From Pseudarthrobacter sp. IC2-21 (GTDB lineage: Bacteria; Actinomycetota; Actinomycetes; Actinomycetales; Micrococcaceae), in assembly GCF_034048115.1 (NCBI RefSeq), contig NZ_CP139145.1, positions 1,612,001 to 1,676,000 on the forward strand: DNA of 64,000 nucleotides, in the 5' to 3' direction. The position numbers and the translations under genes are program-made. The notes under the pieces were generated by a model that worked only from the letters and a program-made list of their open reading frames with translations, made no database searches and was not told the origin of the DNA. Below are positions 13,830-63,071 of the stretch, piece by piece (within the stretch, counting starts at the first letter, position 1; each line of letters begins with the position of its first letter).

Positions 13830-13861
13830 CCTTAACCTTCGACCTCTAGTAGAGGGTCAAG
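13830..13861. promoter_or_regulatory. Candidate MerR-type operator upstream of parA-scpAB
   Basis: The segment begins with the 13-base word CCTTAACCTTCGA (13830-13842), which recurs in the opposite orientation upstream of ftsZ (63058-63070). It continues as a long imperfect palindrome centred on CTCTAGTAGAG (13846-13853 region), with left and right arms agreeing at 10 of 14 positions. Long palindromes with this central layout are characteristic of MerR-family operators. Two MerR-family genes lie in this window. It ends about 130 bp before the parA start. Confidence 0.55.
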
Positions 13862-13991
13862 GCTCAGAATCCACACAAAGTCAAGTTCCCTCGAATACCG
13901 TGTCGGGACCTGTAGCCTAGGTGAAAAGCAGGATCGGCGCTGGGTCACCAGCGGCAGGAAAATCACCGTCATCGAAAGTGTGGATAGATAC

Positions 13992-14891
13992 GTGAGCAGC
14001 GAACAGGGTTCGGCAACTCTGGAAGGCACGGAACTCGATCTGGAAGACGCCGTGATGGGTCCCACCGGGCGGCCCCACCGCGAATTCCCGGAACCCGCAC
14101 CGCTGTCCTCCCACGGTCCCGCGCGCGTGATCGCCATGGTCAACCAAAAGGGCGGGGTGGGCAAAACCACGTCCACCATCAATTTGGCTGCGGCCCTCGC
14201 CGAGTACGGCCGCAGGGTTCTGCTGGTGGACTTTGACCCCCAGGGCGCGTTGTCCGCCGGCCTGGGCATCAACCCGCATGAACTGGACCTGACCGTCTAC
14301 AACGTCCTGATGGACCGCAAAGTGGACATCCGCGACGCCATTCATCAGACCGGCGTTGAAAACGTCGATCTGCTGCCGGCCAACATCGATCTGTCCGCCG
14401 CCGAAGTGCAGCTAGTCAACGAGGTGGCCCGTGAGCAGGTCCTGGACCGGGCCCTGAAGAAGGTGGAAGACGACTACGACGTCGTGCTGATTGACTGCCA
14501 GCCGTCCCTCGGATTGCTGACCGTTAACGCGCTCACTGCTGCGCACGGCGTCATCATCCCGCTGATCTGCGAATTCTTCGCCCTCCGCGCCGTTGCCCTG
14601 CTCGTGGAAACCATCGACAAAGTCCAGGACCGGCTCAACCCCCGGCTGCAGGTGGATGGCGTCCTCGCCACTATGTACGACGCCCGCACCCTGCACAGCC
14701 GAGAAGTCATCAGCCGCCTGGTGGAAGCTTTCGGTGACAAGGTCTTCGAGACCGTCATCAAGCGTTCCATTAAGTTTGCCGACGCCACGGTCGCGGCTGA
14801 ACCGATCACCACCTACGCGGGGAACCACATCGGGGCGGACGCCTACCGCCGGCTGGCCAAGGAACTGATTTCCCGCGGCGGCGCACCCTAG
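13992..14891 (+). CDS. parA: ParA-family chromosome partitioning ATPase
   Basis: This 299-residue protein has a disordered N-terminus of about 45 residues followed by a ParA/Soj ATPase. The deviant Walker A is KGGVGKTT (about 58-65), Walker A' is LLVDFDPQG and Walker B VVLIDCQPS. It binds DNA non-specifically when ATP-bound and helps segregate chromosomes. No parB is adjacent. Instead it is followed after 7 bp by scpA and scpB, an order conserved in actinobacteria (Rv1708-Rv1710), so it may work with condensin loading. The start is uncertain: GTG at 13992 (VSSEQGS) or GTG at 13980; neither has a clear Shine-Dalgarno. Confidence 0.9.
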   Translation: MSSEQGSATLEGTELDLEDAVMGPTGRPHREFPEPAPLSSHGPARVIAMVNQKGGVGKTTSTINLAAALAEYGRRVLLVDFDPQGALSAGLGINPHELDLTVYNVLMDRKVDIRDAIHQTGVENVDLLPANIDLSAAEVQLVNEVAREQVLDRALKKVEDDYDVVLIDCQPSLGLLTVNALTAAHGVIIPLICEFFALRAVALLVETIDKVQDRLNPRLQVDGVLATMYDARTLHSREVISRLVEAFGDKVFETVIKRSIKFADATVAAEPITTYAGNHIGADAYRRLAKELISRGGAP

Positions 14892-14898
14892 CCAGACC

Positions 14899-15711
14899 GT
14901 GGCGGAGTCCAAGCCCGGCTTTGAGGTACGGCTGGCGAATTTCACCGGTCCATTCGACCTTCTGTTGGGCCTCATTGCCAAGCATCAGCTGGACATTACC
15001 GAGGTGGCCATCGCCACCGTCACTGACGAGTTCATTAAGTACATCAGGAAGCTCCAGAAACTCGGTGAGGAATGGGCGCTGGACGAAGCCAGCGAGTTCC
15101 TTGTCATCGCAGCCACGCTCCTGGACCTCAAGGCGGCGCGGCTGCTGCCGGCCGGTGAAGTGGAGGACGACGAGGACATCGCCAGGCTGGAAGCCCGTGA
15201 CCTCCTGTTCGCCCGTCTCCTGCAGTACAAGGCGTTCAAGCAGGTGGCCGCGCTGATGGCGGACAGCCTGGAACAGGAGGCCCAGCGGTTCCCGCGGCAA
15301 GTTGCCCTGGAAGAGCACTTCGCCGCGATGCTCCCGGAGCTGGTGTGGAAACACACGCCGCAGCAGTTCGCGCGGCTGGCTGAAGTGGCCCTGCAGCCGA
15401 AGGCGCCCAAGCCCACTGAGGTGGGCCTGGCCCACCTTCACGGCAGCGCCGTCAGTGTCAAGGAGCAGGCGGAGATCCTGGGCCTGCGGCTTCAGCCGGG
15501 AAAGCCCCTTTCCTTCCGGGCGCTGATTGCCGACGCCGAATCCACCCTGGTGGTGGTGGCCCGTTTCCTGGCATTGCTGGAAATGTTCCGGGACAGGGCG
15601 GTCTCCTTTGACCAGCTCTCTCCGCTGGGTGACCTCACGGTGCACTGGACAGCGGCCGGCACGGACTGGTCAACCGAAAACCTGAGCGAAGAATTTGAGG
15701 AGCAATTGTGA
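14899..15711 (+). CDS. scpA: Segregation and condensation protein A
   Basis: ScpA is the kleisin subunit that bridges SMC heads in the bacterial condensin. The 270-residue protein shows the family N-terminus FTGPFDLLLGLIAKHQLDITEV (residues 15-36) that contacts the SMC neck. A central acidic linker follows, then a C-terminal winged-helix region (about 190-265) that binds the other SMC head. It starts with GTG. Its TGA overlaps the scpB GTG in the sequence GTGA, a sign of coupled translation of two subunits of one complex. Confidence 0.95.
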   Translation: MAESKPGFEVRLANFTGPFDLLLGLIAKHQLDITEVAIATVTDEFIKYIRKLQKLGEEWALDEASEFLVIAATLLDLKAARLLPAGEVEDDEDIARLEARDLLFARLLQYKAFKQVAALMADSLEQEAQRFPRQVALEEHFAAMLPELVWKHTPQQFARLAEVALQPKAPKPTEVGLAHLHGSAVSVKEQAEILGLRLQPGKPLSFRALIADAESTLVVVARFLALLEMFRDRAVSFDQLSPLGDLTVHWTAAGTDWSTENLSEEFEEQL

Positions 15712-16394
15712 CTGCGGAGTTTTCGGCTGCCGGGGCGGCGCCTGCCGCGGACGACGACGGGCACGCAGTTCCGGACGTCCACTCACTTCCGGGCGGTCCC
15801 AAGGCTGCACTTGAAGCAGTGCTCATGGTCCTGGATCAGCCCGCCACCTCCACCGACCTCGCAGCAGGCCTTAACTTGACGGTGGCTTCCGTTGAGCAGT
15901 TGCTCGTGGAACTGCAGCGCGAGTATAGCGGCTATACTGTTAAAGCCCCGGACATGGATGACGCCAGCGTTGCTGGCTTCAGCGCCAGCCCCCGGGGTTT
16001 TGAATTGCGGAGCATCGCCGGTGGCTGGCGGATCTACTCCCGCGCAGACTTTGCCGACATTGTGGGCCGTTTTGTGCTGGAGGGTCAGACGGCCAGGCTG
16101 ACGCAGGCGGCACTGGAAACCCTTGCCGTCATCGCGTATCGCCAGCCTGTCTCCAGAGCCAGGGTATCCGCAATTCGGGGAGTCAATGTCGATTCTGTCG
16201 TACGGACATTGACCCAGCGCGGGCTGATCGAAGATGCAGGAAACGATCCTGAATCGGGAGCCATCCTCTACCGGACTACATCGTATTTCCTGGAACGGAT
16301 GGGCATCGGCTCCGTGGCGGAACTGCCGCAACTCTCACCCCATCTTCCGGGGCTCGAGGGGATCGCGGATTTCTACGACGCCGACAGAATGTAG
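15708..16394 (+). CDS. scpB: Segregation and condensation protein B
   Basis: ScpB is the accessory dimer that binds ScpA in the SMC complex. The 228-residue protein has the expected two winged-helix domains, about residues 28-110 and 120-190, with the family core TQAALETLAVIAYRQPVSRARVSAIRGV near 125-150. It begins with GTG inside the scpA stop (GTGA overlap). A short perfect stem-loop (16393-16399 with 16404-16410) sits on its stop codon but has no T-run. rluB follows after 111 bp. Confidence 0.95.
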   Translation: MTAEFSAAGAAPAADDDGHAVPDVHSLPGGPKAALEAVLMVLDQPATSTDLAAGLNLTVASVEQLLVELQREYSGYTVKAPDMDDASVAGFSASPRGFELRSIAGGWRIYSRADFADIVGRFVLEGQTARLTQAALETLAVIAYRQPVSRARVSAIRGVNVDSVVRTLTQRGLIEDAGNDPESGAILYRTTSYFLERMGIGSVAELPQLSPHLPGLEGIADFYDADRM

Positions 16395-16505
16395 GCGGGG
16401 TATCCCGCCTGCACACAAGAGTATTCATAAGGGCAGATAAATTCTGCATGGCTGGCTAGGGTTGTTCTTGGACAACTTGCCGGTCAACATATCGAAGGAC
16501 GGGTC

Positions 16506-17837
16506 ATGACACAGGCGGGACGCCAGGGTTCACCACGTAACGGTTCTGGACGGAACAGTTCAGAACGCAATGCCGGACAAGGCGGCGCCAGCCGCAGTAC
16601 GCCGGCTAGCCGCAGTACGCCGGCCAGCCGCAGTACGCCGCGCAATCCGGCGCAGGGCGGCACGGGCCGCAACCCTGCCGCAGGCCGCAATCCTGCTCAG
16701 GGCGGCAGCGGCCGCCCCGCCGCGGCGGGTGGGGGCTTCCGCGCAGGTGCCGGCAAGCGCACTGCCGGCTTCGGCGGCGGCGACCGGCCCTACAAGGCGC
16801 CGAAGCCGCGCGAGGAGCCTTTTGTTGATCCCGGAGATGCCCCGGCTTCTCCGGCAGGGCGCGGGGACTCCGACTGGAAGCCCGCCGCAGCCCCGGCCCG
16901 GAAGCCTGCTGCCCGGAAACCGGGAGCCAAAAAAGCGCCGGGCACGCCCGGGGCCCTCAAGCCCAAGCCACGTGCCGGCAAGCCCGGGGCAGCTGCTTCG
17001 CGCGCATTCGGCAGCGAACGGTTCGGCCAGAACCTTGGCCCCGTGCGCAAGCCCTCCCGCAAGCGCGGACCCCGTGGACCGGTTCCGCAGTCTGAAATGC
17101 ACGACGCCGACGGGATCCGCCTGCAGAAGGTCATGGCCCAGGCGGGTGTGGCGTCGCGCCGCGTCTGTGAGGAAATGATCGCCGAGGGCCGCGTTGAAGT
17201 GGATGGCCAGGTCGTCACCGAGCTGGGTGTCCGGGTGGACCCCAAAACGGCTGTCATCCACGTGGACGGACTGCGGATCCAGCTGGACGAGAACCTTGTT
17301 TACATGGTGTTCAACAAGCCCAAGGGCGTCGTCTCCACCATGGAGGACCCGGACGGGCGGCCGTGCATCAGCGATTTTGTGCGGAAGACCCACCAGGGCG
17401 AACGCCTGTTCCATGTGGGCCGGCTGGACGTTGCCACGGAAGGCCTGCTGCTGCTCACGAACGACGGCGAGCTGGCCAACCGCCTGACCCACCCCTCCTA
17501 TGAGGTGCCCAAGACCTACCTGGTGCAGGTCCGCGGACCGTTCCCGCAGGGAATTGGCGCCCAGCTGAAGGAAGGCGTGGAGCTTGAGGACGGCTTCGCT
17601 TCCGTGGACTCCTTCAGGCTGGTGGATTCCACTCCGGGCCACGTGCTGATCGAAGTTGTGCTGCACTCCGGCAAGAACCGCATTGTCCGGCGTTTGTTTG
17701 ACGCTGTGGGCTTCCCGGTCCTGCGCCTGGTGCGCGTCAAGGTGGGCCCCATTGGCCTGGGTGACCAGCGCCAGGGCAGCATCCGCAACCTTGGCAAGCA
17801 GGAAGTCGGCCACCTGCTGGCATCCGTAGGGCTCTGA
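16506..17837 (+). CDS. rluB: 23S rRNA pseudouridine synthase RluB-like with long basic N-terminal extension
   Basis: RluB-type enzymes convert a uridine in 23S rRNA domain V to pseudouridine. The conserved part of the 443-residue protein is an S4 RNA-binding domain (about 204-265) and an RsuA-family catalytic domain with Asp308 in GRLDVATEGLL. The first ~200 residues are low-complexity, rich in Arg, Ala, Gly, Pro and Ser, including a tandem SRSTPA repeat, and are probably disordered and nucleic-acid binding. The ATG at 16506 follows GAAGGACGGG. The position after scpB matches Rv1711. tyrA begins 3 bp after the stop. Confidence 0.92.
   Translation: MTQAGRQGSPRNGSGRNSSERNAGQGGASRSTPASRSTPASRSTPRNPAQGGTGRNPAAGRNPAQGGSGRPAAAGGGFRAGAGKRTAGFGGGDRPYKAPKPREEPFVDPGDAPASPAGRGDSDWKPAAAPARKPAARKPGAKKAPGTPGALKPKPRAGKPGAAASRAFGSERFGQNLGPVRKPSRKRGPRGPVPQSEMHDADGIRLQKVMAQAGVASRRVCEEMIAEGRVEVDGQVVTELGVRVDPKTAVIHVDGLRIQLDENLVYMVFNKPKGVVSTMEDPDGRPCISDFVRKTHQGERLFHVGRLDVATEGLLLLTNDGELANRLTHPSYEVPKTYLVQVRGPFPQGIGAQLKEGVELEDGFASVDSFRLVDSTPGHVLIEVVLHSGKNRIVRRLFDAVGFPVLRLVRVKVGPIGLGDQRQGSIRNLGKQEVGHLLASVGL
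16590..16640 (+). repeat. 18-bp tandem repeat in rluB
   Basis: An 18-bp unit (AGCCGCAGTACGCCGGCT-like) occurs at 16590-16607, 16608-16625 and, shortened, 16626-16640. It keeps the reading frame and encodes the repeated peptide SRSTPA in the disordered N-terminus of RluB. Copy number could vary between strains. Confidence 0.85.
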
Positions 17838-17840
17838 CGC

Positions 17841-18950
17841 ATGTCCGCATTTCGCTCACACGGGCGCGGACACCTCAACGGTCCCGTCGTGGTGATTGGC
17901 ACCGGCCTGCTTGGCACCAGCATCGGACTGGGACTGCGGGGCCGGGGGGTGCCGGTATTCCTCTCGGATCCCTCGCCCACCAACCAGGCTGTTGCGGTGG
18001 ACATCGGTGCGGGCCAGCCGTTGGGCATGCTTGACGGCGGGACACCGGAGCTTGTGGTGGTGGCCGCGCCGCCGGACGTAACGGCTTCCGTGGTGGCGCA
18101 GGCGCTGACTGACTACCCGGATTCCGTGGTAGTGGACATCGCCAGCGTCAAAGCCGCCATCCTAACGGAGCTGCAGGCGAGCGGGGCGGACATGTCCCGC
18201 TACGTAGGTACGCATCCAATGGCGGGCCGCGAAAAGTCCGGTCCCGTGGCGGCCCGCGGCGAGCTGTTCACCTCCATGCCGTGGGTGGTTTGTCCGGGCC
18301 CCGATTCATCGGCAGACGCCGTGCAGACGGCGCGTTCGCTGGCAACCGATCTCGGCGCGGTAGTTTCGGAATTCACGGCTGACGAGCACGATCAGGCCGT
18401 GGCCCTCGTCTCGCACCTGCCCCAGATCATGTCTTCGTTGCTGGCCAGCCAACTCCAGGGGACACCGCTGCACGCGCTGTCCCTCGCCGGCAACGGGCTG
18501 CGGGACGTTACGCGCATCGCCGCCAGCGACCCCACGCTGTGGGTCCAGATCCTCGGCGGCAACGCCGCGAAAGTGGTGGAGATCCTCTACGGTGTCCGGG
18601 AGGACCTGAACCGGCTGATCGGCACCTTGGAGCAACCCTTGGCGCCGGGTGCCAGACTGGATCTGGCCCAACTCATCAGCGAAGGCAACGCCGGGCAGGC
18701 CCGCATCCCGGGCAAGCACGGCGGACCGCCGCAGGCGTACACCTGGCTGACGGTCCTCGTTGACGACAGGCCTGGCCAGATCGCCAGGCTCCTTACCGAA
18801 ATCGGTGAGGTCGGCGTCAACGTGGAAGACCTGAGGCTGGACCATTCGTCCGGGCAGAACGTGGGAATGGTGGAACTCTCCGTACTGCCGAACAAGCACG
18901 ACCACCTGATCGAAGCACTCAACGACCGCGGATGGCGGGTACTGCAGTAA
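17841..18950 (+). CDS. tyrA: Prephenate dehydrogenase
   Basis: TyrA oxidatively decarboxylates prephenate to 4-hydroxyphenylpyruvate in tyrosine synthesis. The 369-residue protein has an N-terminal Rossmann domain with VVVIGTGLLGTSIG (about 16-29), the catalytic region THPMAGREKSGP (about 118-129) with its conserved His, a helical dimerisation domain, and a C-terminal ACT-like domain (about 298-369, TVLVDDRPGQIARLL) that may bind tyrosine for feedback control. It starts 3 bp after rluB and its TAA shares a base with the cmk ATG. Confidence 0.93.
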   Translation: MSAFRSHGRGHLNGPVVVIGTGLLGTSIGLGLRGRGVPVFLSDPSPTNQAVAVDIGAGQPLGMLDGGTPELVVVAAPPDVTASVVAQALTDYPDSVVVDIASVKAAILTELQASGADMSRYVGTHPMAGREKSGPVAARGELFTSMPWVVCPGPDSSADAVQTARSLATDLGAVVSEFTADEHDQAVALVSHLPQIMSSLLASQLQGTPLHALSLAGNGLRDVTRIAASDPTLWVQILGGNAAKVVEILYGVREDLNRLIGTLEQPLAPGARLDLAQLISEGNAGQARIPGKHGGPPQAYTWLTVLVDDRPGQIARLLTEIGEVGVNVEDLRLDHSSGQNVGMVELSVLPNKHDHLIEALNDRGWRVLQ

Positions 18951-19663
18951 TGACACAGGAACTTCTTGACACCGTGCCGGCCTTGCGCGTCGGCAGGCCA
19001 CTGGTGGTGGCCATTGACGGGCCCTCCGGCTCGGGAAAATCCAGTGTCAGCAGGGAAGTGGCCCGCAGGCTGCACCTCGCCTACCTGGACACGGGCGCCA
19101 TGTACCGTGCCCTCACCTGGTTCTGCGTCTCCGGCGGCATCGACCTCACGGACGCCGCAGCCGTGGAGCAGGCGGCCCGGGACCTCGTCCTGGACCTGAG
19201 CACCACACCCCAGGCGGAATACGTTCGCGTGGACGGGACCGACGTTACCGACGCCATTCGCGAGCCCGCCATTTCGTCGGCGGTCAGCGCGGTGGCCACC
19301 ACACTGGGCGCACGGACCGAACTGATCCGCAGGCAGCGTGAGCTCATCGAAAAGCACCACCGCCGCATGGTGGTGGAAGGACGCGACATCACCACCGTCG
19401 TCGCGCCCGGCGCCGAGGTCCGCATGCTGCTGACCGCCAGCGAGGAAGCACGGCTCCGCCGCCGCGGTATCCAACTGGGCGGCACCCAGAACGCGGAGCA
19501 ACTCGCCGCCCAAGTCACGCAGCGCGATGCGAGGGACTCCACGGTGGTGAACTTCACGCAGGCCGCCGACGGTGTGGTCACACTCGATTCATCAGATCTT
19601 GATTTCACGGAAACCGTTGACGCCGCCCTGGTGATCGTGACAAAGGTCCTCAACCGTGACTGA
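18950..19663 (+). CDS. cmk: Cytidylate kinase
   Basis: Cmk phosphorylates CMP and dCMP with ATP. The 237-residue protein has the P-loop IDGPSGSGKSSVS (about 22-34), the YLDTGAMYRALTW substrate segment, and the EGRDITTVVAPGA motif. The frame opens six codons earlier, but the ATG at 18950 overlaps the tyrA stop (TAATG) and is the better start. Its end overlaps the GTG of the acyltransferase by 8 bp. The order rluB-(tyrA)-cmk-(plsC)-der matches a conserved actinobacterial block. Confidence 0.95.
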   Translation: MTQELLDTVPALRVGRPLVVAIDGPSGSGKSSVSREVARRLHLAYLDTGAMYRALTWFCVSGGIDLTDAAAVEQAARDLVLDLSTTPQAEYVRVDGTDVTDAIREPAISSAVSAVATTLGARTELIRRQRELIEKHHRRMVVEGRDITTVVAPGAEVRMLLTASEEARLRRRGIQLGGTQNAEQLAAQVTQRDARDSTVVNFTQAADGVVTLDSSDLDFTETVDAALVIVTKVLNRD

Positions 19664-20387
19664 GCGCACCAAGGTTCCGTCCGGCCTGACCATGGCCTGG
19701 AGCCGGCCCGTCGGCTGGCTCCTGGATCACGTGGTTTACCGGACCTCTGTCACCGGCAAGCACAACGTGCCCACGGGCGGACCGGTTATTTTTGCCGGCA
19801 ACCACATCAGCTTCCTGGACGGGCCGGTGATGTTCGGTGCGTCTCCGCGCGCCATGCACATCCTCGTCAAGAAGGAGATGTTCAAAGGCTTCCTGGGCCG
19901 GGTGCTGCGCGCTTCCGGCCAGCTCCCGGTGGACCGTTCCGGGGACCGGGCAGCCCTGCTGCTGGGCAAGGATGTGCTCAAGGCCGGCCGCTGCATCGGG
20001 ATTCTGCCGGAAGGTACCAGGGGGAGCGGTCAGGCGTTGGACATCAACAACGGGGTCGCCTGGCTGGCACTGAACTCGGGAGCGCCCGTGGTCCCGGTGG
20101 CGATTTTGGGCACCAGGACCGGCAGCGAACACCTCGACACCGTACCCAGGCCCGGGCGGCGTTTCCACGTCAGCTTCGGCAATGCGCTGACCCTGAGCCG
20201 CAACCCCGGCGAAACGGGCCGTGCTTCAATGGACAGGGCGGGATTGGAAATCCGCGCTGCGCTGGCGGGGCACGTCCAGGACACCATCAAACACAGTGGG
20301 CAGCCCCTGCCCCACGCGGATTCCCGCACGAACTTCACAGCAGTAGCCGGGACGCCGGCAGATGACCACTTAAGGAAAGTGCAATGA
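19656..20387 (+). CDS. 1-acyl-glycerol-3-phosphate acyltransferase (PlsC family)
   Basis: This 243-residue protein is a PlsC-type acyltransferase that probably makes phosphatidic acid from lysophosphatidic acid at the membrane. The HX4D motif is seen in [10 protein letters not shown] (about 48-57) and the acceptor-site motif in LPEGTRGSG (about 122-130). It starts with GTG preceded by AAAGG and overlaps cmk by 8 bp. Its stop overlaps the der ATG in ATGA. A second PlsC homologue is at 37377-38189, so the two may differ in acyl or acceptor preference. Confidence 0.9.
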
Positions 20388-21934: not shown

Positions 21935-22082
21935 TTACGACACACCGGAGACGTGTGGGTGGCAAAGTGTCACCGACACCCTCCGGGATCGTGTAAGCTT
22001 TTCAAGGTGGTTCGGCCGGACTGCTGAGTTGAAATCCCGGGTAACACCGGGGAGTAAACGCAGCGGAGAACGGCGGAACTAA

Positions 22083-22159
<77 letters not shown>

Positions 22160-22161
22160 TG

Positions 22162-22201
22162 AAGGGCCGTTTTCCGGTAACAACCGGAAAGCGGCCCTTT
22201 T
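22162..22201 (+). terminator. Rho-independent terminator of tRNA-Pro
   Basis: AAGGGCCG(T)TTTCCGG pairs with CCGGAAA(G)CGGCCCTT around a 6-base loop, followed by TT. The first arm starts three bases after the tRNA CCA. It may also end the leftward transcript of the small secreted protein at 22220. Confidence 0.88.
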
Positions 22202-22219
22202 GCGTTGATCCGGCGGTCC

Positions 22220-22531
22220 TTACCTCACGTAGACGGTGTAGTGGACGTGGCCTTGGCCGTCCCAGTACCGGGAGTCCCAATTACGGTGGTGGCCGTGACG
22301 GTCATTTCCCCAGCAGTCGTAGCCGTCTTCGTCGTAGCCGTCCTTGTCATAGCGGCCGTGGCCATTGTGGTCATAGCCGTGATCCTTGTGATCGTTGTGA
22401 TAGGACGAACCACGGTAGGTATCTCCTGACCGGTCGCTGGCAGAGGCAGCGGTGGCAGTCAGGGCTGCACCGCTGAAAGCCAGGCCGGCAGCAACGAGGG
22501 TGGAGCCGAATAAGCGGGTTACTTTGTTCAT
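22220..22531 (-). CDS. Small secreted His/Asp/Gly/Tyr-rich protein
   Basis: This 103-residue protein has a clear Sec signal peptide: basic MNKVTR, a hydrophobic core LFGSTLVAAGLAFSGAALT, and a likely cleavage after ATAASA near residue 31. The mature 70 residues are dominated by His, Asp, Gly, Tyr and Arg, with one Cys and a repeated DGYD/EDGYD. About a dozen histidines beside many aspartates suggest metal binding, but no family is recognised and function is unknown. The strand bias, signal peptide and G/C third positions support a real gene. It is convergent with tRNA-Pro. Confidence 0.72.
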   Translation of the reverse strand: MNKVTRLFGSTLVAAGLAFSGAALTATAASASDRSGDTYRGSSYHNDHKDHGYDHNGHGRYDKDGYDEDGYDCWGNDRHGHHRNWDSRYWDGQGHVHYTVYVR

Positions 22532-24059: not shown

Positions 24060-24065
24060 TATACT
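24060..24065 (+). promoter_or_regulatory. Candidate -10 of the gcvH promoter
   Basis: TATACT matches the consensus -10 at five of six positions and lies 64 bp before the gcvH start. No good -35 is seen 16-18 bp upstream. The 23858-24129 gap holds no convincing gene. Confidence 0.4.
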
Positions 24066-24654: not shown

Positions 24655-25131
24655 ATGGTTGGCCACAAGAAGGACCATGCCGAAGGCGATTACGGCACAG
24701 GTGCGGCCAGGGCTTCGGAGACCACCTCGATCCATCTCACCCCCGTCACCGATGAGCCCATCATTGCCCCCAGGCTCTCCACCGAGGAGCGGCTGTCGGT
24801 CGAGGCCCTGCCTGCCGGATCCGCTCTGCTGGTTGCCCACAGCGGACCGAATGCAGGCGCCCGCTTCCTGCTGGATTCCGACGTCACCACCGCTGGCCGG
24901 CACCCGGATGCGGACATCTTCCTCGACGATGTCACCGTTTCCCGCCGGCACGTGGAATTCCGCCGCACGCCCCGCAGCTTCGAAGTTGTGGACACGGGCA
25001 GCCTCAACGGGACGTATGTCAATCATGACCGGGTTGACAGTGTGGAGCTGAAGTCCGGGAACGAAGTTCAGATCGGCAAGTTCCGCCTCACCTTCTACCT
25101 GAGCCCTGCCCGCGCAGCAGGCCGCGCCTGA
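24655..25131 (+). CDS. garA: FHA-domain regulator GarA/OdhI
   Basis: GarA (OdhI in corynebacteria) inhibits the 2-oxoglutarate dehydrogenase complex and modulates glutamate metabolism when not phosphorylated. Ser/Thr kinases such as PknG and PknB phosphorylate an N-terminal ETTS motif and switch it off. The 158-residue protein has ETTS at residues 22-25 and a C-terminal FHA domain (about 55-150) with GRHPDAD, VSRRHVEF and GSLNGTYVN, the phosphothreonine-binding residues. An AGAGGAGG Shine-Dalgarno precedes the ATG. It is followed 17 bp later by the ftsR-type gene. Confidence 0.94.
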   Translation: MVGHKKDHAEGDYGTGAARASETTSIHLTPVTDEPIIAPRLSTEERLSVEALPAGSALLVAHSGPNAGARFLLDSDVTTAGRHPDADIFLDDVTVSRRHVEFRRTPRSFEVVDTGSLNGTYVNHDRVDSVELKSGNEVQIGKFRLTFYLSPARAAGRA

Positions 25132-25148
25132 TTCAGGAACACTTGCCT

Positions 25149-25871
25149 GTGGCCATGGCCCAACCGGAACGCCGGGGACCCCACGTCCTGAACATTGGGG
25201 AAGTCCTCGCACAACTCAGCGCCGACTTTCCCGGGATGAGCGCGTCGAAAATCAGGTTCCTGGAGGAAAAGGGACTCATCAATCCGCGCCGGACCCCTGC
25301 GGGCTACCGGCAATACGCTGAGAGCGATGTTGAGCGCCTGCGCTTTGTGCTGGCCCTGCAACGTGACCAGTACCTTCCCCTCAAAGTCATCAAGGACTAC
25401 CTTGACGCCATTGACAGGGGAGAGCGCCCCGAAAACCTGCCTCCCGGCGTCGTGGTTTCGCCCAGGATCGTCTCCGACGAACTTGCAGCGGAGCTCCAAA
25501 ACCGGGGGCGTAAATTTAGCGAGGAACAGCTGCGGGCAGAGTCCGGAGCGAGCGTCCCGCTCCTCCAGTCGCTGCTCAGCTTCGGGCTCATCAGCCACAG
25601 CCACGGCAAGTTTGATGAGCATGCGCTCCAGGTAGCCAGGGCATGCGTGCAGTTGGAGGGCCACGGCCTCGAGCCGCGCCACCTGCGCCCGTTCCAGGCC
25701 GCCGCGGAACGCGAATTCGGGCTCGTGGAGCGGGCGGTTGCCCCCTTGGCGTCCCGTCGCGATTCCGCTTCACAGGCGCGGGCGGCAGAAGCAGCCCGCG
25801 AAATTTCCGACCTTTGCCTGATCCTGCACCGGGCCCTGGTGCAGGACCGCATCTCGCGGATGGACATCTGA
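25149..25871 (+). CDS. ftsR: MerR-family regulator FtsR
   Basis: This 240-residue protein has an N-terminal MerR winged helix (about 15-85: IGEVLAQLSADFP, SKIRFLEEKGLINPRRTPAGYRQY) and a long helical C-terminal part without metal-binding cysteines. It corresponds by order and sequence to Rv1828 and to FtsR of Corynebacterium glutamicum, known to regulate ftsZ. The frame opens with TTG at 25143; GTG at 25149 sits at better distance from AGGAA, and ATG at 25155 is also possible. Its TGA shares a base with the next ATG. Candidate targets are the shared motif sites at 13830, 26381 and 63047. Confidence 0.88.
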   Translation: MAMAQPERRGPHVLNIGEVLAQLSADFPGMSASKIRFLEEKGLINPRRTPAGYRQYAESDVERLRFVLALQRDQYLPLKVIKDYLDAIDRGERPENLPPGVVVSPRIVSDELAAELQNRGRKFSEEQLRAESGASVPLLQSLLSFGLISHSHGKFDEHALQVARACVQLEGHGLEPRHLRPFQAAAEREFGLVERAVAPLASRRDSASQARAAEAAREISDLCLILHRALVQDRISRMDI

Positions 25872-26380: not shown

Positions 26381-26411
26381 ATTAAGGTTAAAGTTGAGGC
26401 TGAAACTTCCG
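26381..26411. promoter_or_regulatory. Candidate MerR-type site upstream of second merR gene
   Basis: The plus strand here reads TTAAGGTTAAAGTTGAGG (26382-26399), followed by CTGAAACTT. It matches the ftsZ upstream site AAGGTTAAGGTTG at 12 of 13 positions, and shares AAGGTTAA with the parA site. It lies about 30 bp before the -35 of the merR promoter, suggesting autoregulation or control by FtsR. Confidence 0.55.
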
Positions 26412-26439
26412 ACACGCTTTCGCGATCGGTCCTAGGTCT

Positions 26440-26468: not shown

Positions 26469-26540
26469 CGAAGGTATCAAGCTCCCATTGCTTACAGCAG
26501 CCGCGCAAGTCACACTGTAAAAGTACGACCCCCGCGAATT

Positions 26541-26579
26541 GCACGTATGGACTTCATACGTGCACTGGCTGATGCAGTG
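26541..26579 (+). other. Adjacent double hairpin in the merR leader
   Basis: GCACGTATG (26541-26549) pairs perfectly with CATACGTGC (26555-26563) over 5 bases. The next base pairs start immediately: CACTG (26563-26567) with CAGTG (26575-26579). The structures share one base. No T-run follows, so this is not a standard terminator; it is either an RNA element or a palindromic operator. Confidence 0.55.
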
Positions 26580-26611: not shown

Positions 26612-27208
26612 GTGAGTCCCAAAGGCGAAGCGGGCGGACTGAAGCAGCCCACAACGGCTGGTGTTGCTGTGCCCGCGAGCGGTGCCCAGGGCCTCCTGTT
26701 TACCGAAGACCTCCCTGTCCTTGACGAAGACGCAGGCTACCGCGGCCCTACGGCCTGCAAAGCCGCGGGCATCACGTACCGTCAGTTGGACTACTGGGCC
26801 AGGACGGGGCTGGTTGAACCTGCCGTCCGCGGGGCCGCCGGCTCCGGCTCGCAGCGACTTTATGGTTTCCGGGACATCCTGGTACTCAAGGTGGTCAAGC
26901 GACTGCTGGATACCGGCGTCTCCCTTCAGCAGATCCGCTCGGCCGTGGAACACCTGCGCGAACGCGGGGTGGAGGACCTGGCGCAAATCACGCTCATGAG
27001 CGACGGCGCGAGCGTCTACGAGTGCACCTCCGCCGATGAAGTCATTGACCTTGTCCAGGGCGGCCAGGGTGTCTTCGGCATCGCCGTGGGACGCGTGTGG
27101 CGCGAAGTCGAGGGGAGCCTGGCGTCGCTGCCAAGCGAGCACGCGGCCGTGCAGTCCTTTCCCGACGACGAGCTGAGCAAACGGCGCGCGGCGCGCAAAA
27201 TCAGCTGA
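26612..27208 (+). CDS. MerR-family regulator, ResR/McdR (Rv1830) type
   Basis: This 198-residue protein has a MerR winged helix at about residues 45-115 (GPTACKAAGITYRQLDYWARTGLV and a basic wing) and a C-terminal effector-like region (about 125-175) without cysteines. Its order after garA-ftsR-DUF151 corresponds to Rv1830, linked to cell division and growth control in mycobacteria. The GTG start has an excellent GAAGGAGG Shine-Dalgarno at 26598-26605. It is preceded by its own promoter, a shared motif site and a hairpin leader. A strong bidirectional terminator follows. Confidence 0.9.
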   Translation: MSPKGEAGGLKQPTTAGVAVPASGAQGLLFTEDLPVLDEDAGYRGPTACKAAGITYRQLDYWARTGLVEPAVRGAAGSGSQRLYGFRDILVLKVVKRLLDTGVSLQQIRSAVEHLRERGVEDLAQITLMSDGASVYECTSADEVIDLVQGGQGVFGIAVGRVWREVEGSLASLPSEHAAVQSFPDDELSKRRAARKIS

Positions 27209-54057: not shown

Positions 54058-54063
54058 ACCGAG

Positions 54064-55530: not shown

Positions 55531-56636
55531 TTGCACTTTTGATCGGCGCGGGACTTGCCCTGCTGTTCGCCCTGGTGGGAACCCCCCTGTTTATCCGCCT
55601 CCTTGTCCGCAAAAGCTACGGGCAGTTCATCCGCGATGACGGACCCACATCCCATCACACCAAACGCGGCACGCCCACCATGGGCGGAACCGTGGTGGTG
55701 GGAGCAGTGCTCCTCAGCTACGGCCTGACCCACCTGATCATGTGGCTGATGAACCCGGCGTCCGCCGGACCGTCGGCGTCGGCCCTGATCCTCCTGTTCC
55801 TCATGGTCGGCATGGGGCTGGTCGGCTTCCTCGATGACTTCATCAAGATCTCGCGCCAACGCAGCCTTGGCCTGGACGCGAAAGCCAAACTCATCCTTCA
55901 GGCGGCGGTGGGCATCGCCTTCGCCATCCTCGCCCTGAACTTCCCCGATCCCCAGGGCCTGACCCCGGCGTCGACAAAAATTTCCCTGGTCCGCGACATC
56001 CCCTGGCTGGACCTGGCCTTCGGCGGCACGGTCATCGGCGCCATCCTGTTCGTCCTCTGGTCCAACCTGATCGTGACGGCAGCTACCAACGGCGTGAACC
56101 TCACGGACGGGCTGGACGGGCTGGCCGCCGGCGCCGCTGTGATGGTGTTCGGCGCCTACACCCTGATGGGAATCTGGCAGAACAACCAGGCCTGCGGATC
56201 GCCGCGCGAAACCGGAAGCGGCTGCTACACCGTCCGCGATCCCCTGGACCTGGCACTCCTGGCGGCAATCCTCAGCGCCGCCCTGGTGGGCTTCCTCTGG
56301 TGGAACACTTCGCCGGCCAAAATCTTCATGGGCGACACCGGCTCCCTCGCCATCGGCGGCGCCATTGCCGGCTTCGCCATCCTCTCCCGCACCGAACTGC
56401 TCCTGGGCATCGTCGGCGGCCTGTTCGTGCTGATCACCCTCTCGGTGATCATCCAGGTGGGCTACTTCAAATTATCCGGCGGCAAACGTGTCTTCAAGAT
56501 GGCACCGCTGCAGCACCACTTCGAACTCAAGGGCTGGGCTGAGGTGACCGTGGTTGTCCGCTTCTGGATCCTGGGCGGCCTCTTCGTCGCCGTCGGCCTG
56601 GGTGTCTTCTACGCAGAATGGGTTGTGCTCCTGTGA
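55527..56636 (+). CDS. mraY: Phospho-MurNAc-pentapeptide transferase MraY
   Basis: MraY transfers phospho-MurNAc-pentapeptide to undecaprenyl phosphate, making lipid I at the cytoplasmic membrane face. The 369-residue protein has about ten membrane helices and the family motifs [18 protein letters not shown] (about 33-50), [10 protein letters not shown] with the Asp pair (about 98-107), [13 protein letters not shown] and FMGDTGSL, plus the histidine-rich PLQHHFEL. It starts with GTG overlapping murF and ends overlapping murD. Confidence 0.96.
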
Positions 56637-58195
56637 CTGTTTCCCCGCGCCTGCAGAACCTGGTCAGCTGGGACTCGGACTGGGCCGGCCTGCGCGTTGT
56701 TGTCACCGGAATCGGTGTGTCGGGCTTCGCCGCAGCGGACACCCTCATTGAACTCGGGGCCCGCGTGGTGGTGGTCGACGCCGCCACCACCGACACCGCG
56801 AAGGCCCACGCGGACACCCTGAAGATTGTCGGCGCCGTGGACGTGCTCCTTGGCGAGGAGGCCGTCAGCAGGGTTCCCAAGATTGAAGGAAGCTTCCCCG
56901 ACCTCATCGTCACCTCGCCGGGCTGGCGTCCCGACCAGGCGCTCCTCGCCGCCGCCGCACGCGCGCACATCCCGGTCTGGGGCGACGTCGAACTCGCCTG
57001 GCGGCTGCGGGTGCGTGAAGGACACAAGACCCCCGACTGGCTGACGATCACCGGCACAAACGGCAAGACCACCACGGTCGGACTGACGGCCTCAATGCTG
57101 CAGGCCGCAGGACTGAAGGCGATTGCCGTCGGCAACGTGGGCACACCCATCCTGGATGCCCTCCGCGACCCGGTGGAGTATGACGTGTTCGCCGTTGAAC
57201 TCTCCAGCTTCCAGCTGCACTGGGCGGAATCCCTCTCGCCCGTCGCCAGCGTGTGCCTGAACGTGGCAGAAGACCACGTTGACTGGCACGGTTCCTACAA
57301 CTCCTACCTGGCCGACAAAGCAAAGGTCTATGCCCGCACGCAGAAGGCCTGCATCTACAACGCCGAGCAGATCGAAACCGAACGCATGGTGGAGGACGCC
57401 GACGTGGTTGAAGGCTGCCGGGCCGTCGGCTTCACCACGCTCACCCCGGCCATCAGCATGCTGGGCGTGGTGGACGGACTCCTCGTGGACCGGGCCTTCA
57501 TCGAGCAGCGCAAGGACAGTGCCGCCGAGCTCGCGTCGATGACGGACCTGGGGCAGTTCGCCCCCCGCCACATGGTGGCCAACGCCCTGGCAGCTGCCGC
57601 ACTGGTGCGCGCCTACGGGGTGGACACGGAGGCGGTCCGCCAAGGCATCCAGGACTACGTGCCGGGCAACCACCGCATCCAGCCCGTTGCCCGGGTGAAC
57701 GGTGTTCTTTGGGTCAATGATTCCAAGGCCACCAACCCCCACGCAGCGGCCGCATCACTGACGGCATTCGAGAAGGTCATCTGGATCGCGGGAGGACTCT
57801 CCAAGGGAGTCAGCTACGACGACCTGGTCCGCGATCAGGCGGGCAGGCTCAAAGCGGTGGTGCTCATCGGCGTCGACACCGCCCCCCTTGCCGATGCCCT
57901 GCAGCGACACGCGCCCGATGTCCCGGTGATCATCGCTTCGGCGGGCGACACTGAAAATATGCAGACTGCCGTAACGGGCGGAGCCAACGCGGGCGACTCT
58001 CCGGTTCCGGGGGAGCACGTGATGTCCCGGGCCGTTGCGTCAGCAGCGCAGCTGGCCGTATCGGGCGACACCGTGCTGATGGCACCGGCGGCTGCTTCCA
58101 TGGATCAGTTCTCTTCCTATGCTCACCGCGGTAACGCCTTTATCGAAGCTGTCCGCGAGCTGGTGGAAGGGCAGGCCCAGACCGGCGAGGAGTAA
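56633..58195 (+). CDS. murD: UDP-MurNAc-L-alanine:D-glutamate ligase MurD
   Basis: MurD adds D-glutamate to UDP-MurNAc-L-Ala. The 520-residue ligase has an N-terminal Rossmann-like domain ([17 protein letters not shown], about 20-36), the ATP site [12 protein letters not shown] (about 138-149), and C-terminal [12 protein letters not shown] longer frame starts with ATG at 56618 inside mraY. The GTG at 56633 gives the same GTGA stop/start overlap used by other pairs here and is preferred. It is somewhat longer than the ~440-residue E. coli enzyme because of insertions in the C-terminal half. Confidence 0.94.
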
Positions 58196-58197
58196 GA

Positions 58198-59541
58198 ATG
58201 GTCAGCACGCCCACCCGGCCGAACGCGGCAAAGCCGCGCACCGGGAAACCCGCGCCGCGTCCGGCACCCGGGTCCACGGTGTCCAGGCCCACCCTCCCTG
58301 CCCGGATCAAGGGCTGGTACCGGGGCTTCTGGTCCGCCCTCGAAGGGAACGGGACATCCCGGAACGGCTCCACCTACTACCTCATCCTGGGCTCCACGCT
58401 GGCGCTCACGGCCATCGGCATCATGATGGTGCTCTCGGCATCCAGCGTCGAATCGATCGCGGCCGGCAAGTCACCGTACGGAGATGCCCTCAAGCAGGGC
58501 ATGTTCGCCGCGATCGGCATTTTCGTGATGTTCGTCCTCTCCAGGATCAACGTGGTGTGGCTCAAGCGGCTGGCATGGCCTGCGGTGGGCGTCGCCCTGA
58601 TGCTCCTGGTCCTGGTCCAGGTGGTGGGCGACGAGGTCAACGGCAACAAAAACTGGATAGACCTGGGCGGCATCACGTTCCAGCCCTCCGAGGCCTCCAA
58701 ACTGGCGCTGGCTCTTTGGATGGCCACCGTCCTGGCCAGGAAAGGCAAACTGCTGCGGCTATGGCAGCATGTGCTCGTCCCGGCCGTGCCGCTTGCGGGT
58801 GCCGTCATCGGCCTGGTCCTGCTGGGCAATGACCTCGGCACCGCCATGATCATCATGATGATCACGGCCGCGGCCTTGTTTTTTGCCGGCGTGCCGCTCT
58901 ACCTCTTTGGCTTTGCAGCCGTGGCCGCCGCTGCCGGGACCGCCGTTATGGCCATCACCAGTTCCAACCGCATGTGCCGGATCACCTCCTGGTGGACCGG
59001 CCAGTCCTGTGCGGACGGCATCGATGCCAACTACCAGGCCACCAACGGTCTCTACGGGCTGGCCTCCGGCGGCTGGTTTGGCGTGGGCCTGGGCCAGAGC
59101 CGGCAGAAGTACAGCTGGATTCCCGAAGCCCACAACGACTTCATCTTCGCCATCATCGGCGAGGAACTGGGCCTGGTGGGCACCGTCGTCGTGCTTGTCC
59201 TTTTTGCCATCCTCGGCGCCGCCATCTACCGCGTGGTGGTGGCGCAGGAGGACATGTTCCACCGCGTCCTGGCCGGCACCATCATGGTGTGGCTCCTGGG
59301 CCAGGCAACCGTCAACATGGCGGTTGTGACCGGCCTGATGCCCGTCATCGGCGTGCCGCTGCCCTTTATTTCGTACGGCGGTTCGGCCCTGCTTATGTCC
59401 CTCTGTGCCGTGGGCGTGGTCCTGTCCCTGGCCCGGGAACAGATGGCTCCGGCCCTTCGCCCCAAGAGAATGCTCAAGTTCGGCACCAGGAAGGCCGGGA
59501 AATCCGCCCGGCCCACCAAAACGGCAAGAAAGCGCACCTAG
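58198..59541 (+). CDS. ftsW: Septal peptidoglycan polymerase FtsW
   Basis: FtsW is a SEDS-family glycosyltransferase that polymerises septal glycan with FtsI. The 447-residue protein has a basic cytoplasmic N-terminus (about 1-60), roughly ten membrane helices, and the family motifs NKNWIDLGGITFQPSE (about 149-164), NDLGTA, the extracellular loop with GQSRQKYSWIPEAHNDFIFAIIGEE, and GVPLPFISYGGS. GAGGAG precedes the ATG, 2 bp after the murD stop. The C-terminus is basic. Confidence 0.96.
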   Translation: MVSTPTRPNAAKPRTGKPAPRPAPGSTVSRPTLPARIKGWYRGFWSALEGNGTSRNGSTYYLILGSTLALTAIGIMMVLSASSVESIAAGKSPYGDALKQGMFAAIGIFVMFVLSRINVVWLKRLAWPAVGVALMLLVLVQVVGDEVNGNKNWIDLGGITFQPSEASKLALALWMATVLARKGKLLRLWQHVLVPAVPLAGAVIGLVLLGNDLGTAMIIMMITAAALFFAGVPLYLFGFAAVAAAAGTAVMAITSSNRMCRITSWWTGQSCADGIDANYQATNGLYGLASGGWFGVGLGQSRQKYSWIPEAHNDFIFAIIGEELGLVGTVVVLVLFAILGAAIYRVVVAQEDMFHRVLAGTIMVWLLGQATVNMAVVTGLMPVIGVPLPFISYGGSALLMSLCAVGVVLSLAREQMAPALRPKRMLKFGTRKAGKSARPTKTARKRT

Positions 59542-59547
59542 CACCCG

Positions 59548-60648
59548 ATGACTTCCCAGAACCTGTCCATTGTCCTGGCGGGCGGCGGCACCGCCGGCCA
59601 CATCAGCCCGCTCCTGGCGATCGCGGCTGCCCTGCGGACCGCCGCGCCGCAGTCCCGGCTGCTTGCCGTGGGCACGCCGTCGGGCATGGAAACGCGCCTG
59701 GTCCCGGCGGCCGGCGTGGAGCTCGCCACCATCGACAGGGTACCGTTTCCGCGGAAACCGTCCCTGGACCTGCTGAAGCTGCCCGCCCGGCTGGCCGGTG
59801 CAGTGCGCCAGTCCGGCCGGATCCTGGACGAGGCCTCTGCCGACGTCCTGGTTGGCGTGGGCGGTTACGTCTGCACTCCGTTGTACCTCGCTGCCCGCCG
59901 ACGCGGGATCCCCATTGTGATCCATGAAGCCAACACCAGGCCGGGCCTGGCCAACCGCGTGGGATCGTTACTGACCCGGCATGTTGCCACCGCCTTCGAG
60001 ACCACCCGGCTGCGGCACGCCCGCCACGTCGGGATGCCGATGCGGACCGAAATCTCGGGCCTGGACCGGGAATCGGCCCGCGGTGCGGCGCGCAAGGCCC
60101 TGGGTCTTGATGAACACAAGCCCACCCTGATCGTGACCGGCGGCTCGTCCGGTGCCCGGAGCATCAACCGCGCCATGGCTGAAGCGGCCCGGGACCTGGG
60201 CGCGGCCGGGATCCAGACGCTCCACATCACCGGCCGCGGCAAGACAGTGGTGGCGCCCGACGGCGGCCCGCTCACCGCTGACGGCTACCGGCAGGTTGAG
60301 TACGTGGACGGGATGGAACTGGTGTACGCCGCCGCCGACCTCCTGCTGGCGCGGTCCGGTGCCGCCACCGTCTGTGAGGTGGCAGCAGTGGGAGTTCCCG
60401 CCGTTTTTGTACCGCTGCCCATCGGCAACGGTGAGCAGGCACTGAACGCCGCCGGGCTGGTGGAAAGCGGGGGCGCGCTCATCGTCCCGGATAAGGACTT
60501 CACCGCGCAGTGGATAACGGGCCACATCATCCCGTTGATCACCGACTCGCAGCGGCTGGCCGGCATGGCCGCCAGCTCCCGCCGGCTTGGCATCCGAAAC
60601 GCCGATCAGCGCATGGCTGGTCTTGTCCTGGAAGCGGTATCCGCATGA
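59548..60648 (+). CDS. murG: UDP-GlcNAc:lipid I N-acetylglucosaminyltransferase MurG
   Basis: MurG converts lipid I to lipid II. The 366-residue GT28 glycosyltransferase has the N-terminal glycine loop [12 protein letters not shown] (about 10-21), GVGGYVCTP (about 105-113), and the C-terminal UDP-GlcNAc site with [10 protein letters not shown] (about 198-207) and [21 protein letters not shown]. It begins 6 bp after ftsW, and its TGA overlaps the murC ATG in ATGA. Confidence 0.96.
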
Positions 60649-62021
60649 CCCCCGCAAGCATCCGCAGCCAGAAGTCCCTGGGCCGCGTCCACTTCATCGG
60701 CATCGGCGGTGTCGGCATGTCCGCCGTGGCCCGGATCATGGCGGCACGGGGTGTCACTGTCAGCGGTTCAGATGCCAAGGACCTGCCGGTCATGGCGGAC
60801 CTGGCGACCGCCGGAGCCCGCATCGCCGTGGGGTATGCCGCATCCAACCTGGGCGATGCCCAGACCGTGGTGGCGGGTTCGGCCATCCGCGCGGACAACC
60901 CGGAACTGGTGGCCGCCCGTGAAGCCGGACTGCCCGTCCTGCACCGGTCCGAGGCGCTGGCATCAACCATGGGCGACGACACTGTGGTGACCATCGCCGG
61001 AACGCACGGCAAGTCCACCACCACCTCCATGATTACGGTGCTGCTCCGGGGAGCCGGGCTGGACCCTTCGTTTGCCATCGGGGCCAACGTGCCTGCCCTG
61101 GGCGTGAATGCAGCCCACGGCAGCTCCGGCATCTTTGTGGCCGAAGCGGATGAATCCGACGGCTCCTTCCTGAACTACCGGCCGCAGATAGCCGTGGTCA
61201 CCAACGTGGAACCGGATCACCTGGACCACTACGGCACCGCGGAGGCCGTTTACGAATCCTTTGACCGCTTCACCGAACTGCTTCCGGCCGACGGCGTCCT
61301 GATAGCCTGCGCGGATGACGCCGGCGCCCGCGCCCTCGCCGAGCGCACGCGGGCCCGCGGGAACACGCGGGTGGTCCTGTACGGAACGTCGGACGGCTCC
61401 GACCTGGTTTTGCAGGACGACGGCCCCGGAAAGGTGGACGTGTCCGCACCTGCCGGCCGGTATGCCCTGGATCTGCAGGTCCCCGGCCGGCACAACGCGC
61501 TCAATGCCGCGGCCGCGGTCGCCGTCGCCCTGGAGCTGGGCGTCGAGGCCGGCGCCGCCGCGCGGGCCCTGTCCCAGTTCTCCGGAGCGTCGCGCCGTTT
61601 CGAACTCAAGGGGGAGGCCGGCGGAGTACGCGTTTTTGACGACTACGCCCACCACCCCACCGAGGTCCGGGCAGCCCTGACCGCGGCCCGGTCCGTGGCA
61701 GGCGGGCACCATGTCCACGTGCTCTTCCAGCCCCATCTGTTCTCCCGCACCAGGGAGTTCGCCAAAGAGTTCGCCGACGCCCTGAACCTGGCAGACACGG
61801 CCCTGGTCCTGGACATCTACCCTGCCCGTGAAGATCCCATCCCGGGCGTGACCAGCCAGCTGATCGCCGATCACCTGGGGCCCGGCGGCCGGCTCGTGGA
61901 ACCGGCGGAAGCTGTGTCCGCCCTGGCCCGGGCCGCCCGGCCCGGTGACATCGTCCTGACCGTCGGCGCGGGCGACGTGACCGCCTTCGGCCCGCAGATT
62001 GTGCAGGCCCTCGATGGGTAG
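60645..62021 (+). CDS. murC: UDP-MurNAc:L-alanine ligase MurC
   Basis: MurC adds the first amino acid of the stem peptide. The 458-residue ligase has the N-terminal UDP-binding [14 protein letters not shown] (about 16-29), the ATP site [13 protein letters not shown] (about 118-130), the [12 protein letters not shown] motif and the C-terminal [10 protein letters not shown]. The open frame begins far upstream in murG, but the ATG at 60645 overlapping the murG stop is the natural start. ftsQ overlaps its end by 8 bp. No ddl gene follows, unlike in many dcw clusters. Confidence 0.96.
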
Positions 62022-62931
62022 CCCGCGCCGCCCCACCTACGCGTCACCGGGACGCCGGCCAGCCGATGCCGGGGCGGCGTCGGCTGAACCTGAGACCATC
62101 TCCGCTTCCAAGAGTGTCCCCGTTCCGGATCCGGCCACCGTGCCGGCCCGCAAGAAGGGAAAGGCCCCGGGATCCGTGCCGTCCCGGGAGAAGAAACCGG
62201 CCGGCCCCGACAACGTGCTGGTTTTTCCTGAGCCGCCGGCCAAGCGCCGGAGGCGGCATTTGCTCGTTGCCGCGGGAACTGTGCTGGGGCTGGTTGCGGC
62301 CCTCCTTGCCGCAGCCATCTTTTCGCCGATGCTGGCCGTGGGCACCATTTCCGTAACAGGGACCAAACTGGTCACATCCGACCAGGTGCAGGCGGCGCTG
62401 GAGCCGCTGAAGGGCAAACCGCTGCCGCAGATCAGCGACGACGAGGTCAGCAGCATGCTGAAGTCCCTGGTGCAGATCAAATCCGTCTCTTCGCAGGCAC
62501 GGCCGCCATCAGAACTCGTGGTGCACGTGCTCGAACGCACTCCGGTGGCGCTGGTCAAACAGGGGGAGCAGTACCAGCTGGTGGACGTGGACGGCGTGGT
62601 GCTGGCTGCGACGACGGACCCGGCCTCGGTGTCCCTTCCCGTGATCGACGGCGGCGCCGGAACCATCGGCAAGGACCTTTTCCAGGCCACCGCCGAGGTG
62701 CTGGGGGCGCTCCCCCCGGACGTACTCTCGAAGCTTTCCAACGCCTCCGCCCAATCGGTGGATGCCGTGGAACTGAAGCTGGTGGACGGCCAGACCATCA
62801 TCTGGGGCAACGCCGGGGAGAAGGAACTCAAGGCCAAGGTGCTTGCAGCCCTCCTGAAGGTTCCGGCCGATCCAAAGAACCCCGTGCGCGTGTACGATGT
62901 GAGCGCGCCCCGGCATCCGGTGACGCGTTGA
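62014..62931 (+). CDS. ftsQ: Cell division protein FtsQ (DivIB)
   Basis: FtsQ recruits FtsL and its partners to the divisome. The 305-residue bitopic protein has a long, Pro/Lys-rich cytoplasmic N-terminus (about 1-85), one membrane helix (about 88-110, HLLVAAGTVLGLVAALLAAAIF), a POTRA domain (about 115-185, VGTISVTGTKLVTSDQVQAAL) and a beta domain. The ATG at 62014 overlaps murC and is preferred over the earlier in-frame codon at 61999. ftsZ follows after 201 bp with its own regulatory region. Confidence 0.93.
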   Translation: MGSPRRPTYASPGRRPADAGAASAEPETISASKSVPVPDPATVPARKKGKAPGSVPSREKKPAGPDNVLVFPEPPAKRRRRHLLVAAGTVLGLVAALLAAAIFSPMLAVGTISVTGTKLVTSDQVQAALEPLKGKPLPQISDDEVSSMLKSLVQIKSVSSQARPPSELVVHVLERTPVALVKQGEQYQLVDVDGVVLAATTDPASVSLPVIDGGAGTIGKDLFQATAEVLGALPPDVLSKLSNASAQSVDAVELKLVDGQTIIWGNAGEKELKAKVLAALLKVPADPKNPVRVYDVSAPRHPVTR

Positions 62932-63034
62932 ACCTTTCCTCCGGCAACTGCAAACTTTCCCGGTATTCGCGCGACACGCGGCTCCGGTTATTGAATGTCA
63001 GAACCATAGGAAATAGCGTTCCAACATGAGTTAC

Positions 63035-63071
63035 TTGACATAACTATAACCTTCAACTCGAAGGTTAAGGT
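63035..63071. promoter_or_regulatory. ftsZ upstream region: TTGACA and a perfect inverted repeat
   Basis: A consensus -35 TTGACA (63035-63040) is followed by the perfect inverted repeat TAACCTTC (63047-63054), 5 bases, GAAGGTTA (63060-63067), and a second AGGTT. The minus strand of 63058-63070 reads CCTTAACCTTCGA, the same 13 bases as upstream of parA. No standard -10 lies 16-18 bp after the TTGACA; TAAGGT (63066-63071) is 25 bp away, so a MerR-type activator or another promoter is likely involved. Confidence 0.65.

Follow-up and report, generated by a model that had tools for sequence, protein, structure and literature searches.

Three intergenic sites of 25 bp in the genome of Pseudarthrobacter sp. 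IC2-21 are probably operators of FtsR, a MerR-type activator of ftsZ. They are located in a 64,000-nucleotide stretch of contig NZ_CP139145.1 (the window; positions are counted from its first nucleotide), one before the cell division gene ftsZ, one before an operon of a parA-like gene, scpA, and scpB, and one before a second merR gene, which we take to be mcdR from gene order; no model names it. FtsR would bind the 25-bp imperfect inverted repeat at ftsZ, where the site is widespread in the class, and in the family holding Arthrobacter it would also bind upstream of parA-scpA-scpB and, in some family members, upstream of mcdR.

In Corynebacterium glutamicum, the DNA bound by FtsR before ftsZ is an imperfect inverted repeat of 25 bp, AACCCTAAAGTAAAGGTTGAGGGTA, and similar sites have been proposed in other actinobacteria (Kraxner et al. 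2019, PMC6683498). The window resembles this system in that a 25-bp inverted repeat of similar letters is located upstream of ftsZ and ftsR follows garA/odhI. It differs in that parA-scpAB and mcdR also carry the site.

Detection and conservation of the 25-bp site

A weight matrix was built solely from ftsZ promoters of the family (39 sites from 20 genera), and a second version was made without the strain's own genus. Because the training was limited to ftsZ promoters, the parA and mcdR promoters were independent test cases. The top three distinct places in the window were those at ftsZ (score, 39.6), parA (24.6), and mcdR (16.0). The matrix without the own genus returned the same three (38.8, 24.7, and 16.2, respectively), followed by a fourth place at 10.4. 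Sites were called at a score of at least 10 in the parA and ftsZ promoter counts and at least 12 in the scan of scpA regions, and 200 column-shuffled matrices served as the control.

Upstream of parA, the site was found in 53 of 66 family genomes (the own genome and 65 others), representing 25 of 29 genera, whereas the column-shuffled matrices detected a mean of 0.275 and a maximum of 2 of the 66 genomes. This count leaves out G001, whose ParA match failed the filter (identity of >50, start before residue 120), and G014, G043, and G066, which gave no scpA match. Among named loci, limited to the 80 best out of 538 relatives and each labeled Arthrobacter, Pseudarthrobacter, or Paenarthrobacter, the site was present in 80 of 80 with a lowest score of 16.8; the two sets overlap at least at Arthrobacter ipis, whose upstream region is the same as that of G009. 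When the scpA regions of 66 family loci were scanned (own window excluded, G001 included; 1,287,478 positions), 68 matches scored at least 12, of which 50 were before parA, 15 before mcdR, and 3 elsewhere. Specificity outside the scpA regions is based on pattern scans of the genome and not on a matrix scan.

The ftsZ operator was scored in 64 of 70 family genomes and then in four more, with G040 and G064 outside the count. It was present in 60 of the 64, some of which had contributed to matrix training, and in 2 of the 4. Outside the family, the same matrix detected the ftsZ operator in 35 of 37 FtsR-bearing genomes (the misses were G110 and G088) and in 9 of 9 more. The mcdR site was patchier: among the 29 family genomes with the McdR start inside the stretch analyzed, it was found in 16, representing 8 of 16 genera and including 4 of 4 of the own genus.

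The parA site was found in none of 56 genomes of 34 other families (36 from the class sample and 24 from the order sample, 4 shared), where the best score was 4.3, and no match of at least 8 was detected upstream of parA in 47,299 bases of 61 loci outside the family. The class sample comprised parA and ftsZ stretches from 40 of 118 genomes and ftsZ stretches from 16 more; G153, G136, and G109 (no ParA) and G078 (upstream region too short) were not scored for parA. The order sample comprised the best 30 of 52 scpA-bearing genomes, 26 of them outside the family, with G196 and G222 lacking ParA. Because none of these genomes has it, the parA site looks like an addition specific to the family holding Arthrobacter, the only one in which it was found. 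Some other lineages may transcribe parA from a more distant upstream start.

The first-pass annotation of the window had linked parA and ftsZ through a 13-bp word, CCTTAACCTTCGA. The word is indeed present, exact and in inverted orientation, upstream of the two genes, and no other exact copy occurs in the 4,265,009 bases of the genome. As described, AAGGTTAAAGTTG upstream of the second merR gene is identical to AAGGTTAAGGTTG at 12 of 13 positions, the ftsZ copy forms a perfect 8-5-8 inverted repeat, and all three copies are intergenic between identified genes (symporter/parA, nuclease-domain gene/merR, and ftsQ/ftsZ). Unsupported open reading frames of the mechanical list span all three places.

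The exact 13-mer was rejected as the shared unit. At ftsZ, it occupies positions 3 to 15 of the 25-bp operator on the minus strand, whereas at parA the operator begins within the word, at AACCTTCGA. The exact identity of the two copies is therefore a coincidence of register, since the word covers different parts of the operator. Repeated 13-mers are common: 540 distinct ones recurred within the window, compared with 214 in one shuffled copy, and 21 of the 540 contain no more than 6 G/C; CCTTAACCTTCGA with up to two mismatches was seen 3 times against 0.70 expected. Nor is the word kept by relatives; it was found upstream of 1 of 66 parA and 1 of 64 ftsZ genes in the family, both being the strain's own, and upstream of parA in 1 of the 80 named loci.

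These features of the word would fit an origin of the similarity by chance, through similar words in AT-rich intergenic DNA. The parA counts far above those of the shuffled matrices, and the concentration of 65 of 68 strong matches in 1.29 Mb before parA or mcdR, make chance highly improbable. The shared 13-mer alone proves little, but the 25-bp site behind it is far beyond chance. The idea of one regulator over ftsZ, parA-scpAB, and merR is well backed by conservation, with the 25-bp site and not the 13-mer as the shared unit.

The predicted parA-scpAB operon and promoter layout

The parA-like gene, scpA, and scpB are consecutive. A symporter gene and a sensor kinase gene precede them, genes for a pseudouridine synthase, a prephenate dehydrogenase, and a cytidylate kinase follow, and no parB was found among the neighbors scanned. 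The gene encodes a ParA/MinD-type ATPase, is located directly before scpA, and has no adjoining parB. From its domain type and its place beside scpA, it is most likely an scpAB-linked orphan parA of the PldP/Rv1708 type. PldP (Cg1610) is an orphan ParA-like protein found at the division site, whose mutant has variable cell length and minicells (PMC3989709). Rv1708 complements a minD mutant of Escherichia coli and interacts with both ScpA and ParB; to judge from the locus tags MSMEG_3743 and MSMEG_3742, pldP probably adjoins scpA in mycobacteria too (PMC10482377). The first-pass annotation proposed coordination of division with segregation. Since this parA is most likely the division gene pldP, a division regulon describes the arrangement better.

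In the family promoters of parA, the operator and the next 11 bases were conserved, and the flanks were near random. The 11-base block directly after the operator, AAGGCTCgCcg, had a conservation nearly that of the operator itself. At the place of the parA operator, genomes G039 and G063 (loci L122 and L126; genus g10) have a perfect 25-bp palindrome, GAGGTTCGAGTTCTACTCGAACCTC, whose letters are unlike the family matrix.

A scan for consensus promoters and terminators near parA found nothing. A TANNNT hexamer was located 50 to 56 nucleotides (nt) after the parA operator in 42 of the 53 family genomes with the site. With a transcription start assumed 6 to 7 nt after this hexamer, the operator is centered near -75 to -80, close to the center at -73 of the FtsR site of C. 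glutamicum ftsZ (PMC6683498), so that activation from an upstream position would be the most likely mode at pldP. The scpAB genes would be cotranscribed with pldP, and a single input would then set the supply of FtsZ, the MinD/ParA-like division ATPase, and the condensin subunits ScpA and ScpB together. At mcdR, TANNNT was found 24 nt after the site in 9 of 16 cases. A further element, tACTTGACATAAC, is located just before the ftsZ operator; no -10 element fitting it was found after it.

FtsR as the candidate regulator

The window encodes FtsR, as the first-pass annotation stated, with a model score above the curated cut-off, and the closest solved structure is that of Rv1828, the FtsR of Mycobacterium tuberculosis (5ydc). 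The ftsZ promoter is reported to be the top target of Rv1828 in chromatin immunoprecipitation sequencing, as told in PMC6683498. The operator motif of the family is consistent with that published for FtsR, and FtsR is most likely the protein that binds the three sites. A search of the own genome with a degenerate form of the published repeat gave the ftsZ site as the best match (1 mismatch); the parA site had 3 mismatches, and the mcdR site was found by the matrix only.

The presence of the ftsZ operator followed that of FtsR in family f17, all nine genomes of which in the class sample were compared. The operator was present in 4 of 4 genomes with FtsR (G082, G116, G142, and G182) and absent from all five that gave no match at the FtsR level (G101, G129, G152, G162, and G172), whose best matches to FtsR had E values of 7e-8 to 3e-5, the level of other MerR proteins. 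The latter five belong to three genera and are 99 to 100% complete, and FtsR and the ftsZ operator were apparently lost jointly.

Several results weigh against FtsR as the common regulator. For C. glutamicum, nine peaks are listed from chromatin affinity purification sequencing, none of them at pldP (PMC6683498). In 6 of 68 family genomes (G014, G016, G021, G060, G002, and G048), all with an FtsR match, no matching ftsZ site was found in the 400 to 500 bases read; G016, G021, and G048 (genera g16 and g21) among them have a parA site (scores, 14.4, 12.4, and 17.2, respectively). It is possible that their ftsZ operator is located outside the bases read. The parA site was missing in 13 of 66 family genomes though FtsR was present, comprising all genomes of genera g3, g5, g6, and g12 and two of g10, and the FtsR of g5 is fairly close. 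The ftsZ operator was kept in five fragmented genomes without an FtsR-level match (G075, G112, G115, G081, and G171), in which we think that FtsR was overlooked. The mcdR score of 16 is not outstanding genome-wide, where other pattern matches reached 18.7 (one) and 16.6 to 17.1 (two), and at the 3-mismatch level of the parA site a reversed control pattern gave 10 sites, compared with 15. Finally, the recurrent TANNNT of family ftsZ promoters is located 34 to 36 nt before the operator (36 of 51), an order that does not fit the same mode of action at the ftsZ and parA promoters. It also differs from that in C. glutamicum, where the site is centered at -73 of the ftsZ start.

Binding of all three sites by another MerR protein, such as the one encoded by the mcdR-like gene, with FtsR as a bystander, is an unlikely alternative. 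The mcdR-like gene adjoins one of the sites, operators of MerR proteins resemble each other, and the five fragmented genomes would fit such a binder. The published McdR motif, AATnACAnnnnTGTnATT, is unlike the FtsR motif (PMC9040748), however, and with up to three mismatches the window had 7 matches to it against 4.5 expected, but the three sites were not among them; one match, at 26537 to 26554, was elsewhere before mcdR. McdR was therefore rejected as the binder. The fit of the published FtsR motif to the sites (PMC6683498) and the parallel presence and absence in f17 also favor FtsR over another MerR protein.

It is very unlikely that the element before parA belongs to a conserved structure of another kind (promoter, RNA, or terminator) and merely resembles the ftsZ operator. 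Such a structure would account for its palindromic form, for its contact with the second conserved block, and for its occurrence in three genomes without a matching ftsZ site. The letters of the element nevertheless fit the ftsZ matrix, where column-shuffled matrices fail; the element is located before the predicted -10 element and thus outside the predicted transcript; and no terminator-like site was found at it.

The mcdR promoter resembles the McdR-WhiB2 loop of mycobacteria in that a cGACACGc motif is located before an mcdR-like gene (PMC9040748). It differs in that an FtsR-type operator adjoins the WhiB2 motif and the three sites lack the McdR motif. In genera g17, g20, g22, and g23, GACAC runs into the mcdR operator.

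One further FtsR-type site, with a score of 18.7, was found at genome positions 2443233 to 2443257 (L016, 1501 to 1525), 124 bp before a gene for a protein with domain of unknown function 3145 (DUF3145). Among 69 family genomes with the gene, 30 loci were examined and 7 had the site (4 of 4 in the own genus, 3 in genus g15). It was rejected as part of a wider core regulon because only these 7 of 30 loci have it. The gene may correspond to cg2477, where FtsR has its top peak in C. glutamicum (PMC6683498). Other pattern matches in the own genome, at 153070 and 533849, fall inside long open frames.

Table 1. Positions of the sites, promoter elements, and genes discussed, in window coordinates
Feature	Position	Strand	Basis or remark
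FtsR-type operator at ftsZ, AACCTTCAACTCGAAGGTTAAGGTT	63048-63072	+	Top matrix score in window; 25-bp layout of C. glutamicum site
FtsR-type operator at parA(pldP)-scpAB, AACCTTCGACCTCTAGTAGAGGGTC	13834-13858	+	Second distinct matrix place in window
FtsR-type operator at mcdR-like merR, AAGGTTAAAGTTGAGGCTGAAACTT	26384-26408	+	Third distinct matrix place in window
13-mer copy 1	13830-13842	+	Exact match; not conserved
13-mer copy 2	63058-63070	-	Exact match; not conserved
AAGGCTC, start of conserved block adjoining parA operator	13859-13865	+	Family consensus AAGGCTCgCcg
TAGCCT, predicted -10 of parA	13913-13918	+	TANNNT spacing in family
CGACACGC, published WhiB2 motif	26410-26417	+	1 bp after mcdR operator; motif from PMC9040748
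tACTTGACATAAC, just before ftsZ operator	63032-63044		Strongly conserved among family ftsZ promoters
ftsR, proposed regulator	25143-25871	+	NCBIfam NF050798, 272.9 bits (cut-off, 150); best solved relative Rv1828 (5ydc)
parA-like gene, probable PldP/Rv1708 orthologue	13980-14891	+	ParA/MinD-type ATPase domains; directly before scpA
scpA	14899-15711	+	Best model scores below own cut-off
scpB	15708-16394	+	84.8 bits (cut-off, 89.2)
mcdR-like merR gene	26612-27208	+	Pfam MerR_1
ftsZ, cut by window end	63133-64000	+	Pfam Tubulin and FtsZ_C
garA/odhI, FHA protein gene	24655-25131	+	176.1 bits (cut-off, 200)
Sodium:dicarboxylate symporter gene, precedes parA promoter	12317-13756		Pfam SDF

Implications for the family holding Arthrobacter

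Little is known about how actinobacteria control division at the level of transcription. The orphan ATPase described as PldP, Rv1708, or MSMEG_3743 is the likely counterpart of the parA-like gene product, with an M. smegmatis locus tag adjoining that of scpA (PMC3989709, PMC10482377). Among the papers listed in searches of the open-licence literature, none joins FtsR with pldP or scpAB by title, abstract opening, or term counts, and none showed a link of Rv1828 to Rv1708 (pldP); within this scope, the link to parA-scpAB is undescribed, as the annotation had supposed. The FtsR phenotype of C. glutamicum is reported not to be explained by ftsZ alone (PMC6683498).

In the family, FtsR may well have turned from an activator of ftsZ into the head of a compact cell cycle regulon, comprising the Z-ring subunit, PldP with ScpAB, and mcdR with its WhiB2-type motif, to which pldP-scpAB would have been added once; on balance, this course is more likely than not. 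The sites provide concrete further candidate targets of FtsR in a group made up largely of soil bacteria, and the operator matrix can itself be tested directly. If the reading is true, it would be a clear example of the addition of a division/condensin operon to a regulon within a single family. Taken from sequence comparison, the sites suggest that Arthrobacter-type soil bacteria control division and the handling of the chromosome jointly.

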